In this document: one piece after another, positions 49,493 to 50,905 of the stretch | Layout of the letters: every line of letters starts with the position of its first letter | Numbering within the stretch: position 1 is the stretch's first letter | Assembly: GCF_900167555.1 (NCBI RefSeq) | Contig: NZ_FUYF01000006.1 | Location: 62,001 to 126,000, forward strand | DNA from: Gemmiger formicilis | GTDB taxonomy: Bacteria > Bacillota > Clostridia > Oscillospirales > Ruminococcaceae | DNA: 64,000 bases | Direction of reading: 5' to 3' | Notes under the pieces: generated by a model | Told to the model about the DNA's origin: nothing | The model's input: only the letters and a program-made list of their open reading frames with translations | Databases searched by the model: none | Translations under genes and position numbers: made by a program

Positions 49493-49521
49493 TTGACAAA
49501 GGGACAGCACAGCGTTATAAT
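49493..49521 (+). promoter_or_regulatory. Consensus promoter of a putative small RNA
   Basis: TTGACA 49493-49498, 17-base spacer, TATAAT 49516-49521: both hexamers are perfect, the strongest promoter in the window. No protein gene follows on this strand. Confidence 0.85.
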
Positions 49522-49527
49522 AAGTAT

Positions 49528-49627
49528 AGAAAAAGGCACTGCGACAAGCGGTTGGTCTCTTTCAAATTGGGTTGATAGGTAAGAACCTAAGAACCGTCAC
49601 TTGGCAGAGTGGCGGTTCTTGCTTTTT
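49528..49627 (+). ncRNA. Putative small antisense RNA
   Basis: Predicted transcript of about 100 bases from the consensus promoter to the hairpin AAGAACCGTCACT / AGTGGCGGTTCTT (49589-49620) and its T-run. It has no credible open reading frame with a Shine-Dalgarno. Its 3' two-thirds are antisense to the end and downstream part of the small peptide gene on the minus strand. Its 5' part (GCACTGC...GCGGTTGGTCTCT) is the same sequence that occurs in the leader of that peptide mRNA. Confidence 0.55.
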
Positions 49628-49686
49628 ACAACGATGCTCAATGTAATAGTCTTGCGACCAACATAAAACGTGAATGTAAAACGCAT
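49597..49686 (-). CDS. 29-residue peptide, candidate type I toxin-like product
   Basis: An ORF of 29 codons beginning MRFTFTFYVGRKTITLSIVV and ending NRHSAK. It has a strong Shine-Dalgarno (AAAGGAGGTGA) six bases before ATG 49686. The GGAGG is the 3' arm of a CCTCC-GAAA-GGAGG hairpin, so translation is likely controlled. A promoter lies at 49764-49792. The peptide has alternating hydrophobic residues and a basic tail; it is not a clear single membrane helix. The product is not recognised; the layout is what suggests a function. Confidence 0.5.
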   Translation of the reverse strand: MRFTFTFYVGRKTITLSIVVKSKNRHSAK

Positions 49687-49761
49687 GATCTCACCTCCTT
49701 TCGGAGGGTAGAGACCAACCGCCTGCCGTATGTGCAGTGCCCGCCGCATAAAGCGGCATAA

Positions 49762-49814
49762 AAAGAATACCATGTTTCGACGGTTTTTGCAACCGGGAAA
49801 CATGGTATTTTTTA
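49762..49814 (-). terminator. Terminator of the FMN alpha-hydroxy-acid dehydrogenase gene
   Basis: AATACCATGTTTC / GAAACATGGTATT arms with a 16-19 base loop; minus-strand side followed by CTTTTTATG. Confidence 0.75.
49764..49792 (-). promoter_or_regulatory. Promoter of the small peptide gene
   Basis: Minus strand TTGCAA, 17-base spacer, TATTCT. It lies inside the terminator hairpin of the upstream FMN enzyme gene. Confidence 0.5.
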
Positions 49815-49823
49815 TTGCGTTTT

Positions 49824-50843
49824 TTACTTGATGACCCGTACCATATCGCGGGTGATGGCGTCCAGCGTGGGCGCACCGCACAGGCGCATCGTGTCGGCCA
49901 GCTCATTGCCGAGCTGGGCTGTGTAGGCGGCGACGCCGTCGGCACCGGCACCGTAGACGGCGGTGACGAAGGGCCGCGCGATCAGCACGGCGTCTGCGCC
50001 GAGGGCCAGCGCCTTGAAGACGTCGCTGCCGGTGCGGATGCCGCCGTCCACCAGAATTTTGGCGCGGCCATCCACGGCGGCGACGATGTCGGCCAGCACC
50101 TCCTGCGTGGCGGGGCAGTCGTCCAGCACGCGCCCGCCGTGGTTCGAGACAACAATGCCCGCGGCACCGGCCTCGATGGCCTTTTCCGCGCCTTTGACGG
50201 TCATGATGCCCTTTAAGATAAACGGCACGCCCGCGGCCAGGGCGATTTCTTTTAACTGCTCCACGGTCTTGCTGCCCGCGGGCGGGTCAAGGTGCTGTAA
50301 AAACGGCAGGCCCGCCGCGTCGATGTCCATGGCCATGGCAAAGCAGCCGGAGCTGCGCGCCAGCGCTATTTTCCGGGCCACCGTGGCGTTGTCCCACGGC
50401 TTGACGGTGGGGATGCCCGCGCCGCCGCAGGCCGTGATGGCAGCAGCCGCGCCCTCCATGACCTTGTGGTTCGTGCCGTCGCCGGTGAAGGCAGCAATGC
50501 CGGCCGCCGCGCAGGCGGGGACAAGGATATTGTTGTAGTCCAGATCGTTGTACTTGTCGCCGTAGTGCAGCGTCATGGCGCCGACAGGCCCGGCAAAGAA
50601 CGGATATTTGAAGCTACGGCCAAACAGCGTCAGGGAGGTGTCCGGCTCAAAATTTTCATGGATGGTATCCATGTTCAGCCGTACATTGCGCCAGGCGTCA
50701 AAGTTGCGGACGGCCACCGTGCCGCTGCCCTTGGCACCGGGGCCGGGGATCGTGCCGCCGCAGGCGCGGCCGTTGCAGACCGGGCAGGCGCGGCAGGGGC
50801 CCATCTGACCCTGGGCAGCCTGTAAAACTTCTTTATATGTCAT
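49824..50843 (-). CDS. FMN-dependent alpha-hydroxy-acid dehydrogenase
   Basis: A 339-residue TIM-barrel flavoenzyme of the lactate oxidase / glycolate oxidase family. The catalytic histidine is in VVSNHGGRVLDD, and LVDGGIRTGSDVFKALALGADAV binds the FMN phosphate. FAGPVGAMTLHYGD replaces the usual N-terminal APMG region. The first 40 residues carry CRACPVCNGRACGG, four cysteines not needed for FMN binding, which may hold a metal or Fe-S site. AGGAGG precedes ATG 50843. Substrate unknown; lactate is one option. Confidence 0.87.
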   Translation of the reverse strand: MTYKEVLQAAQGQMGPCRACPVCNGRACGGTIPGPGAKGSGTVAVRNFDAWRNVRLNMDTIHENFEPDTSLTLFGRSFKYPFFAGPVGAMTLHYGDKYNDLDYNNILVPACAAAGIAAFTGDGTNHKVMEGAAAAITACGGAGIPTVKPWDNATVARKIALARSSGCFAMAMDIDAAGLPFLQHLDPPAGSKTVEQLKEIALAAGVPFILKGIMTVKGAEKAIEAGAAGIVVSNHGGRVLDDCPATQEVLADIVAAVDGRAKILVDGGIRTGSDVFKALALGADAVLIARPFVTAVYGAGADGVAAYTAQLGNELADTMRLCGAPTLDAITRDMVRVIK

Positions 50844-50905
50844 CTGGATTTTGCCTCCTGTGTTGCGAGCCGATGCGAGCATCGGCCCCTACAAAAATCG
50901 GGTAA

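Follow-up and report, generated by a model that had tools for sequence, protein, structure and literature searches.

A probable type I toxin-antitoxin-like locus in Gemmiger formicilis with a covarying long-range helix in its predicted peptide mRNA

Layout, relatives and flanks of the locus

Within the 64,000-nucleotide stretch of Gemmiger formicilis DNA analysed here (the window; contig NZ_FUYF01000006.1, positions 62,001 to 126,000), two promoters face each other across some 300 bases. This description, taken from a first-pass annotation made from the letters alone, stands unaltered for the plus strand, where TTGACA-17-TATAAT (49493-49521) matches the consensus perfectly at 12/12 positions, and needs tempering for the minus strand, where TTGCAA-17-TATTCT (49792-49764) is a weak promoter (8/12) lying within the terminator palindrome of the neighbouring gene. 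The plus-strand promoter would give rise to a predicted antisense (antitoxin) RNA of ~100 nt (49528-49627), with the start placed from the promoter and the end from a hairpin, termed T1, behind which the plus strand has a T-run. T1 (49589-49620) is a palindromic terminator hairpin common to both strands, forms covarying helix 4 and contains the last codons and the stop codon of a 29-codon ORF on the minus strand. Inspection of the ORFs of the window found none inside the predicted plus RNA, which, as first described, is a transcript without an ORF whose end hairpin overlaps the last codons of the ORF opposite. At its 5' end (49534-49560, plus strand) the antisense RNA carries a hairpin block of the form X-loop-Y, recognised from the X:Y duplex energy and a strand-biased fold.

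The predicted peptide mRNA (49528-49757, minus strand) would start where its promoter places it and continue beyond T1 as far as the antisense gene's start, its 3' extent resting on covariation and a U-tract. The RNA opens with a predicted hairpin, GCCGC-UUUAU-GCGGC (49743-49757), which is seen by eye in some homologues and is absent in others. This is followed by the 5' arm of a long-range helix (49710-49742), composed of X' (49734-49742) and Y' (49710-49727); the 3' arm (49534-49560, minus strand) is the complement of the antisense 5' block. Behind the 3' arm, UUUUUCU (49528-49534) is a putative true 3' end of the mRNA (T2), in which region the consensus of 56 loci ends GCGCCCTTT. Between the two arms lies the 29-codon ORF (49597-49686; MRFTFTFYVGRKTITLSIVVKSKNRHSAK), for which the ORF listing gives the same frame as a 94-codon ORF from an upstream GTG. 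Its ATG stands behind a Shine-Dalgarno (SD) sequence that is, as already annotated, locked in a predicted CCUCC-GAAA-GGAGG hairpin (49694-49707), and pairing of UGGUCUC with GAGAUCA could extend this hairpin to 49686-49717 once the 5' arm is freed. The predicted minus RNA folds at -107.8 kcal/mol (z -10.75) and the predicted plus RNA (49528-49629) at -38 kcal/mol (z -4.43), with 0/200 shuffles as low in each case. At gathering score the window and 13 related loci had no match in Rfam (RatA included), and a loose threshold returned sub-threshold matches only.

Relatives were collected by a pattern search of GTDB, which returned at least 119 stretches, many of them GC-rich chance matches without ORF and terminator. 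Among the matches listed are Gemmiger, Faecalibacterium, Oscillibacter, Evtepia, Dysosmobacter (an ORF half at a contig end), Yanshouia, Oscillospiraceae and Lachnospiraceae. From 126 distinct pattern matches, 60 were kept and 66 set aside, the latter including a few true or decayed members (L004, L011, L012, L050 and one L092 copy). A looser terminator rule and the addition of viral contigs, on which at least 11 of 20 matches are full members, brought the number kept to 74. In four of these the antisense block went unrecognised: it can be made out by eye in L038 and L046, L042 runs into a contig end and L063 is a chance match. The remaining 70 loci were reduced to 65 by dropping L115 (a misread block), L073 and L119 (no ORF by rule) and the duplicates L080 and L147. 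An alignment (A1) of 56 of the 65 omits near-copies or near relatives (L004, L045, L053, L059, L066) and loci in which the X arm or the spacing is unusual (L037, L060, L110, L122), a choice that favours helix 1 in A1 and in the covariance model R1 built from the 56 loci; the X' and Y' cell counts given below used all 65.

By DNA similarity the locus is present in 7/35 genomes of the genus, the host included. The host genome holds a second copy (two full-length covariance-model matches) and up to nine model matches occur in one genome. Identical readings were obtained for L005 and L023 and for L010 and L024, which include Gemmiger formicilis records. One plasmid record, in five places, and two phage records are similar at ~70% identity; the plasmid record, NZ_AP023416.1 (861 kb, Vescimonas fastidiosa), has no annotated feature under the best match. 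In L074, L092, L199, L204 and L224, two copies of the RNA chassis stand side by side, a few hundred bases apart. Half loci are also found, with L008 and L017 retaining the antisense half only, L011 an intact ORF without the antisense half, and L012 a further case, from which it appears that copies decay by halves.

The antisense promoter reaches at least 9/12 in 65/65 loci, window included (mean 11.57), a score attained by 4% of composition-shuffled regions, and the mRNA promoter does so in 46/65 (shuffled 7%), with the window locus outside the 46. In the eight bases after T1, the mean number of T residues over the 65 loci is 3.68 on the mRNA strand versus 4.55 on the antisense strand. The gene next to the locus (49824-50882), which we take to be dehydrogenase-like, has a terminator palindrome (49743-49816) that overlaps the peptide mRNA promoter. 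A syntenic site with the same flanking genes and without the locus, L160 (G013:C85, near base 2100), represents a gain or loss polymorphism; since the same -10 letters and a 5' hairpin are present at this empty site, the mRNA promoter may predate the locus. The heptamer GTCGAAA, presumably akin to a Spo0A box, occurs upstream of the mRNA in 7/65 loci (shuffled mean 0.4, maximum 2) and upstream of the antisense RNA in 0/65; in the window it lies directly upstream of the -10 at 49764.

Mirrored blocks and a long-range helix

The antisense block X-loop-Y and its mRNA counterparts X' and Y' mirror each other in the DNA. Their likeness (49534-49560 and 49710-49742), which the first-pass annotation had pointed out, is borne out, with the addition that each block is also complementary to the 3' end of the mRNA. 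Over the first seven letters after GCGG, the two blocks agree at 5.44 positions per locus versus 4.12 when shuffled (maximum 4.37 in 1000 shuffles; 70 loci). The strings ACGG.AGGCGG, GGTGA and CCGCCAC are fixed by the search pattern and the antisense core by the search expression, and none of these counts as evidence of conservation.

Covariation shows that the predicted minus-strand RNA folds back on itself, its 5' leader (X' and Y') pairing with its own 3' end. The fold of the window contains 27 long-range pairs, formed by 49534-49560 with 49710-49742. Across 65 loci, Y' and the 3' tail are paired in 1009 of 1040 cells (shuffled 936.5 +/- 4.7, maximum 952 in 1000 shuffles) and the six tail positions free of the search pattern in 378 of 390 (shuffled 317.3 +/- 4.3, maximum 332), counts in which the shuffles do not keep relatedness and the paired cells are not independent events. 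A single Y' position illustrates the range of solutions, with pair types G-C (26), A-U (20), G-U (9), U-A (7), C-G (1) and U-G (1). When the Y cells are read on the antisense strand, 868 are paired versus 1009 on the mRNA strand; that 868 also lies above its own shuffles (796.6) is expected when the blocks are alike. X' and the complement of X pair in 428/455 cells over seven positions (shuffled 382.5 +/- 3.7, maximum 396; antisense strand 411), this being one of three ranges, of which the others give 474/520 (shuffled maximum 434) and 514/585 (maximum 472). RNAalifold recovers both helices unaided from the 56 loci, with 20/33 predicted pairs changed on both sides. A pair count over the loci gives 96.5% paired, a value that 0/500 shuffles reach and that falls to 28-50% on sliding.

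If Y' and the complement of Y have to pair on the mRNA strand, differences between the blocks should be asymmetric, as G-U is allowed and A-C is not. In the Y tail, 35 block differences are wobble-compatible for the mRNA strand, 4 are incompatible and 8 are transversions (naive binomial p 3e-7); the 35 have G in the mRNA against A in the antisense RNA, or U against C, and the reverse applies in the 4. The Y core shows the same asymmetry (118 versus 50, where 42 of the 50 fall on the position that directly adjoins the helix), as does the X helix (25 compatible, 8 incompatible, 19 other), and a wider X window shows it more weakly (113 versus 83, with 164 transversions). This preference for the mRNA strand bears on a different account of the mirrored blocks, according to which they mark the ends of a small mobile element as its terminal inverted repeats, or serve as DNA sites to which a dimeric protein binds. 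The blocks are indeed inverted in DNA, the syntenic G013 site lacks the locus and several copies per genome occur, all of which would suit such elements. However, in addition to the wobble-asymmetric covariation, the arm sequences are specific to each locus rather than forming one conserved site, and no clear target duplication was found by eye at the G013 site, so that mobile ends or protein sites are almost certainly not what the blocks represent.

The predicted 5' hairpin of the antisense RNA is conserved separately from the long-range helix. Its X:Y duplex is more stable within its own locus than when shuffled (-11.61 versus -10.43, z -6.7; 65 loci), and the hairpin folds better on its own strand than on the complement (mean -12.2 versus -8.2 kcal/mol). 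A conserved hairpin in this position would be in keeping with a common protein or RNase that binds the same 5' element on both RNAs, the explanation originally offered for their similar 5' ends. Against this, the likeness is accounted for by the pairing of both 5' ends with the same mRNA 3' tail, the positions of which vary and yet stay paired, and the wobble-asymmetric covariation indicates that the mRNA 5' block pairs with its own 3' end. The original explanation is therefore abandoned, and a shared binding factor is considered very unlikely.

For the long-range helix to be under selection, some RNA must hold both of its arms, and the mRNA must consequently run past T1 through the antisense gene. 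It probably ends at the U-tract at 49528-49534, as judged from the covariation and the tract itself, and T1 could terminate many mRNAs ahead of the synthesis of the 3' arm. The two RNAs had been described as antisense at their 3' parts; by position the predicted RNAs do overlap there, and the overlap would cover the whole length of the plus RNA if the mRNA runs to the U-tract end.

As a general feature of chassis loci, the T1 arm AACCGCC offers the 5' arm a second partner, being complementary to its GGCGGUU, and the two could pair transiently while the 3' arm has yet to be transcribed. Pairing with the terminator arm (GCGGUU:AACCGC) was also considered as the driver and rejected: one compensatory case was found (L007), and in L107, L127 and L137 the blocks change, by eye, and the terminator does not follow. 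Two further candidates were set aside. Self-complementary kissing of the shared GGUURRYY fits by GU pairs, yet several loci break the motif by eye (e.g. L036 and L137), and strand exchange between the two 5' hairpins gave z -1.9 for X' with antisense Y and z -0.2 for antisense X with Y'.

Peptides carried by the chassis

The peptides of the pattern-found loci, typified by MRITLHIGxFTVTIIVKSRNRHSAK and MPITLTFHVFGFTVTIRIKRDNRHPGR, have 20-30 residues and are amphipathic, strand-like and mostly basic-tailed. Purifying selection on the peptide is indicated by sequence comparison: among 482 pairs with identities of 70% or more, the uncorrected pN/pS is 0.23 for the codons preceding the terminator and 0.42 for those lying within it, with the caveat that the pairs are not independent. 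The C-terminal NRHSAK is encoded by the terminator and is missing in L081 and L136, which stop before it, so this ending probably reflects a constraint on the RNA. A broken ORF beside two retained RNAs, which the first-pass annotation had named as the observation that would speak against its reading, was looked for. By rule, 68 of the 70 loci with both arms have an intact short ORF; of the remaining two, L073 differs only in continuing beyond the usual stop, and L119 begins with ACG instead of ATG, its frame being otherwise open.

As was suspected from the letters, the peptide is unusual. Its hydrophobicity has the period of a strand (moment 1.43 at 170 degrees versus 0.50 at 100 degrees across the pattern-found peptides), the best 15-residue hydropathy averages 1.31, with 16/65 reaching at least 1.6, and the pattern-found set does not have the hydrophobic single helix with basic tail of Hol_Tox-like peptides. 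The window peptide has no match in NCBIfam, Pfam, PHROGs or PADLOC up to E 10, its sister peptides have none in these libraries at threshold, and neither the window peptide nor three sister peptides match Hol_Tox (PF16935). Below threshold, MPITLTFHVFGFTVTIRIKRDNRHPGR resembles YrzI small proteins in two libraries (E 0.025 and E 0.041) and phrog_4193 (E 0.056). A literature search with the peptide letters gave no match, and searches for papers on type I toxins, either from the same taxa or with comparable features, listed no description of the family. The earlier remark that the family was not a recognised one is thus in agreement with the searches of both RNA and peptide libraries.

A covariance search of relatives, suggested in the same annotation, found the same RNA chassis at the order, class and phylum levels. 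With a cut-off for distant matches of E 1e-8, R1 matches occur in 22/147 order-level, 31/293 class-level and 16/398 phylum-level genomes, samples that overlap, all contain the host and had stricter filters applied to them. In an alignment of 44 R1 matches (39 loci), 97.7% of cells agree with the structure and 24 pairs are changed on both sides versus 16.6 when shuffled; having been fitted to the model, this alignment is biased in the model's favour, and some close relatives are among its members.

Most of the distant loci examined encode hydrophobic peptides, for example MVTYEQLFLMITMIISVINLVITITKKK and MEYVYIMIFIIALIALIVSIKK. Among 63 model-found places, a subset of the R1 match places, 58 have an ORF by rule and 5 have none; 47 of the 58 reach a 15-residue hydropathy of at least 1.6, a proportion favoured by choosing the most hydrophobic candidate ORF near the SD. 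As 16 of the 65 pattern-found peptides also pass this cut, the two peptide classes are not cleanly apart, and the peptides of L189, L208 and L240 (MKITLVIEFLEYVLRIAFRKK and the like) lie between them and are possibly intermediates. Ten hydrophobic peptides were compared with profile libraries. Three resemble Hol_Tox (E 0.01 to 0.41) and one resembles ComI (E 0.0018), all short of the cut-off, and other sub-threshold matches are to HRG, SPT_ssu-like and CiaD. Conversely, a Hol_Tox search found nine places in 6/117 genomes, with a profile that also rings in the control genome of B. subtilis. R1 overlaps three of the nine at E <=1e-3 (L252, 2e-16; L255, 2e-4; L251, 5e-4) and not the other six, and the long-range pairs exceed all 30 composition shuffles in only 3/8 Hol_Tox loci (L250, L253 and L256). 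The presence of hydrophobic and a few Hol_Tox-like peptides on the same chassis suggests an association of the chassis with type I toxin-like genes of clostridia. On the evidence of these alignments and profiles, the window carries a different peptide on this chassis, and the whole resembles a widespread toxin-antitoxin switch, as yet unnamed, whose peptide is unusual here.

An alternative scenario is that the same RNA anatomy controls a peptide that is not a toxin, namely an antisense-controlled small regulator, signal or stress peptide. The lack of any toxin-family match, a strand-like periodicity in place of a hydrophobic helix and the weak likeness of one sister peptide to YrzI and phrog_4193 are all compatible with this scenario, as is the orphan ORF half of L011, which would be surprising if the peptide is strongly toxic, unless that copy is silent. 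However, relatives carry hydrophobic toxin-like peptides on this chassis and some Hol_Tox places are overlapped by it, the antisense promoter is nearer to consensus than that of the mRNA, and the locus has several copies per genome and a patchy distribution that extends to viral contigs. A non-toxin role is accordingly the less probable reading, albeit one to be taken seriously, and the locus is likely to be a type I toxin-antitoxin-like module, the transcripts, toxicity and switch of which are predictions.

A proposed ribosome-site switch and its known counterparts

In folding predictions over 65 loci, the SD has an unpaired probability of 0.08 in the zipped mRNA and 0.06 in an mRNA truncated at T1, and is hidden in both forms. 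The predicted difference lies next to it: the SD-AUG spacer is more open when zipped, by more than 0.3, in 27/60 loci and the reverse is seen in 0, and the AUG is more open when zipped in 8/65 loci and less open in 1/65. In the window, loss of the 3' arm is predicted to let UGGUCUC pair with GAGAUCA, lengthening the ribosome-site hairpin from 5 to 12 bp. Pairing of the ribosome-site strand within its own locus scores z -2.8 (5/2000 shuffles; 62 loci), which lends this helix moderate support. The outer part of the hairpin, taken alone, does not covary (z -0.8), which leaves the switch step weakly supported. Overall, these predictions suggest that antisense binding would tighten the lock on the ribosome site, as SR4 does on bsrG.

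The following mechanism is proposed. The mRNA would read through T1 and end at the U-tract behind the 3' arm, and its 5' leader would zip with its own 3' end, the ribosome site residing in a short local hairpin either way. The plus RNA, made from a promoter much nearer to consensus, would be able to pair with the entire 3' half of the mRNA; its 5' block copies the mRNA 5' arm and would thus compete for the same 3' tail. Once the antisense RNA is bound, the freed 5' arm would fall onto the SD-AUG spacer, the ribosome-site hairpin would lengthen and translation would be shut, with RNase III removing the mRNA:antisense duplex. When the antisense RNA runs out, the peptide would be made. By analogy with the hydrophobic peptides on the same chassis, the best guess is that it acts on membranes.

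A broader model, which is advanced tentatively and as a plausible idea rather than a favoured one, proposes that the RNA chassis is a portable Clostridia cassette carrying interchangeable, unrelated killer peptides, both hydrophobic helices and a new amphipathic, strand-like kind of type I toxin, while its antitoxin competes with the mRNA 5' end for the 3' tail and so toggles the ribosome-site hairpin. If the model is true, a strand-like member would extend the range of forms known among type I toxins. The analysis also offers a reason why the sense and antisense 5' ends stay alike, namely that both must pair with the same tail, provides a searchable model for an unnamed family of small genes in many gut Clostridia, and makes the exchange of toxins on a conserved RNA scaffold directly testable.

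Several known systems share parts of this anatomy. The Fst/RNAII system (par of pAD1) has convergent RNAs, a common terminator region and a locked SD, and its direct DNA repeats make the two RNAs complementary at their 5' ends. The repeats described here are inverted rather than direct, and the window peptide has no NCBIfam or Pfam match to Fst/Ldr. The type I layout recognised in the first-pass annotation is upheld, and the locus is not a member of Fst/RNAII, which that annotation had named as an example of the layout. Closer in taxonomy are the clostridial modules CD2517.1-RCd8, CD2907.1-RCd9 and CD0956.2-RCd10 of C. difficile, which, in the available portions of their description, likewise consist of a small toxin gene and an antisense RNA in convergent overlap (PMC6563280). 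Their toxins have 50-53 residues, in contrast to the 29 codons of the ORF described here, and the available text contains no words starting with Faecalibacterium, Ruminococc or Oscillo (PMC6563280).

In B. subtilis, according to the accessible parts of one source, the antitoxins of txpA/RatA, bsrG/SR4 and bsrE/SR5 bind the 3' end of the toxin mRNA, the ribosome site is hidden in four or five GC pairs, and in bsrG the SD helix grows from 4 to 8 bp once SR4 is bound (PMC6562991). The same source describes a 'main helix' in bsrG RNA (PMC6562991), to which the present long-range helix may be comparable. Some chassis members appear to encode Hol_Tox peptides, the family of TxpA and BsrG, while the window peptide is strand-like and without a Hol_Tox match. 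An antisense 5' block that copies the mRNA 5' arm, as found here, does not appear for txpA, bsrG or bsrE in the accessible parts of PMC6562991 and PMC3531473.

The idea of a closed toxin mRNA is already known from hok/Sok and from aapA/IsoA of Helicobacter pylori, in which, as far as the consulted sections of the source relate, a 5'-3' long-distance interaction closes the full-length toxin mRNA and short SD hairpins form during transcription (PMC6733600). The family searches made gave no peptide link to hok or aapA. The likeness lies in the RNA, as the present locus also has a 5'-3' long-range helix with compensatory changes. The difference lies in what that helix does: in hok and aapA it hides the SD and 3' processing activates the mRNA, whereas in the present locus a local hairpin is predicted to hold the SD in the zipped and the truncated form alike.
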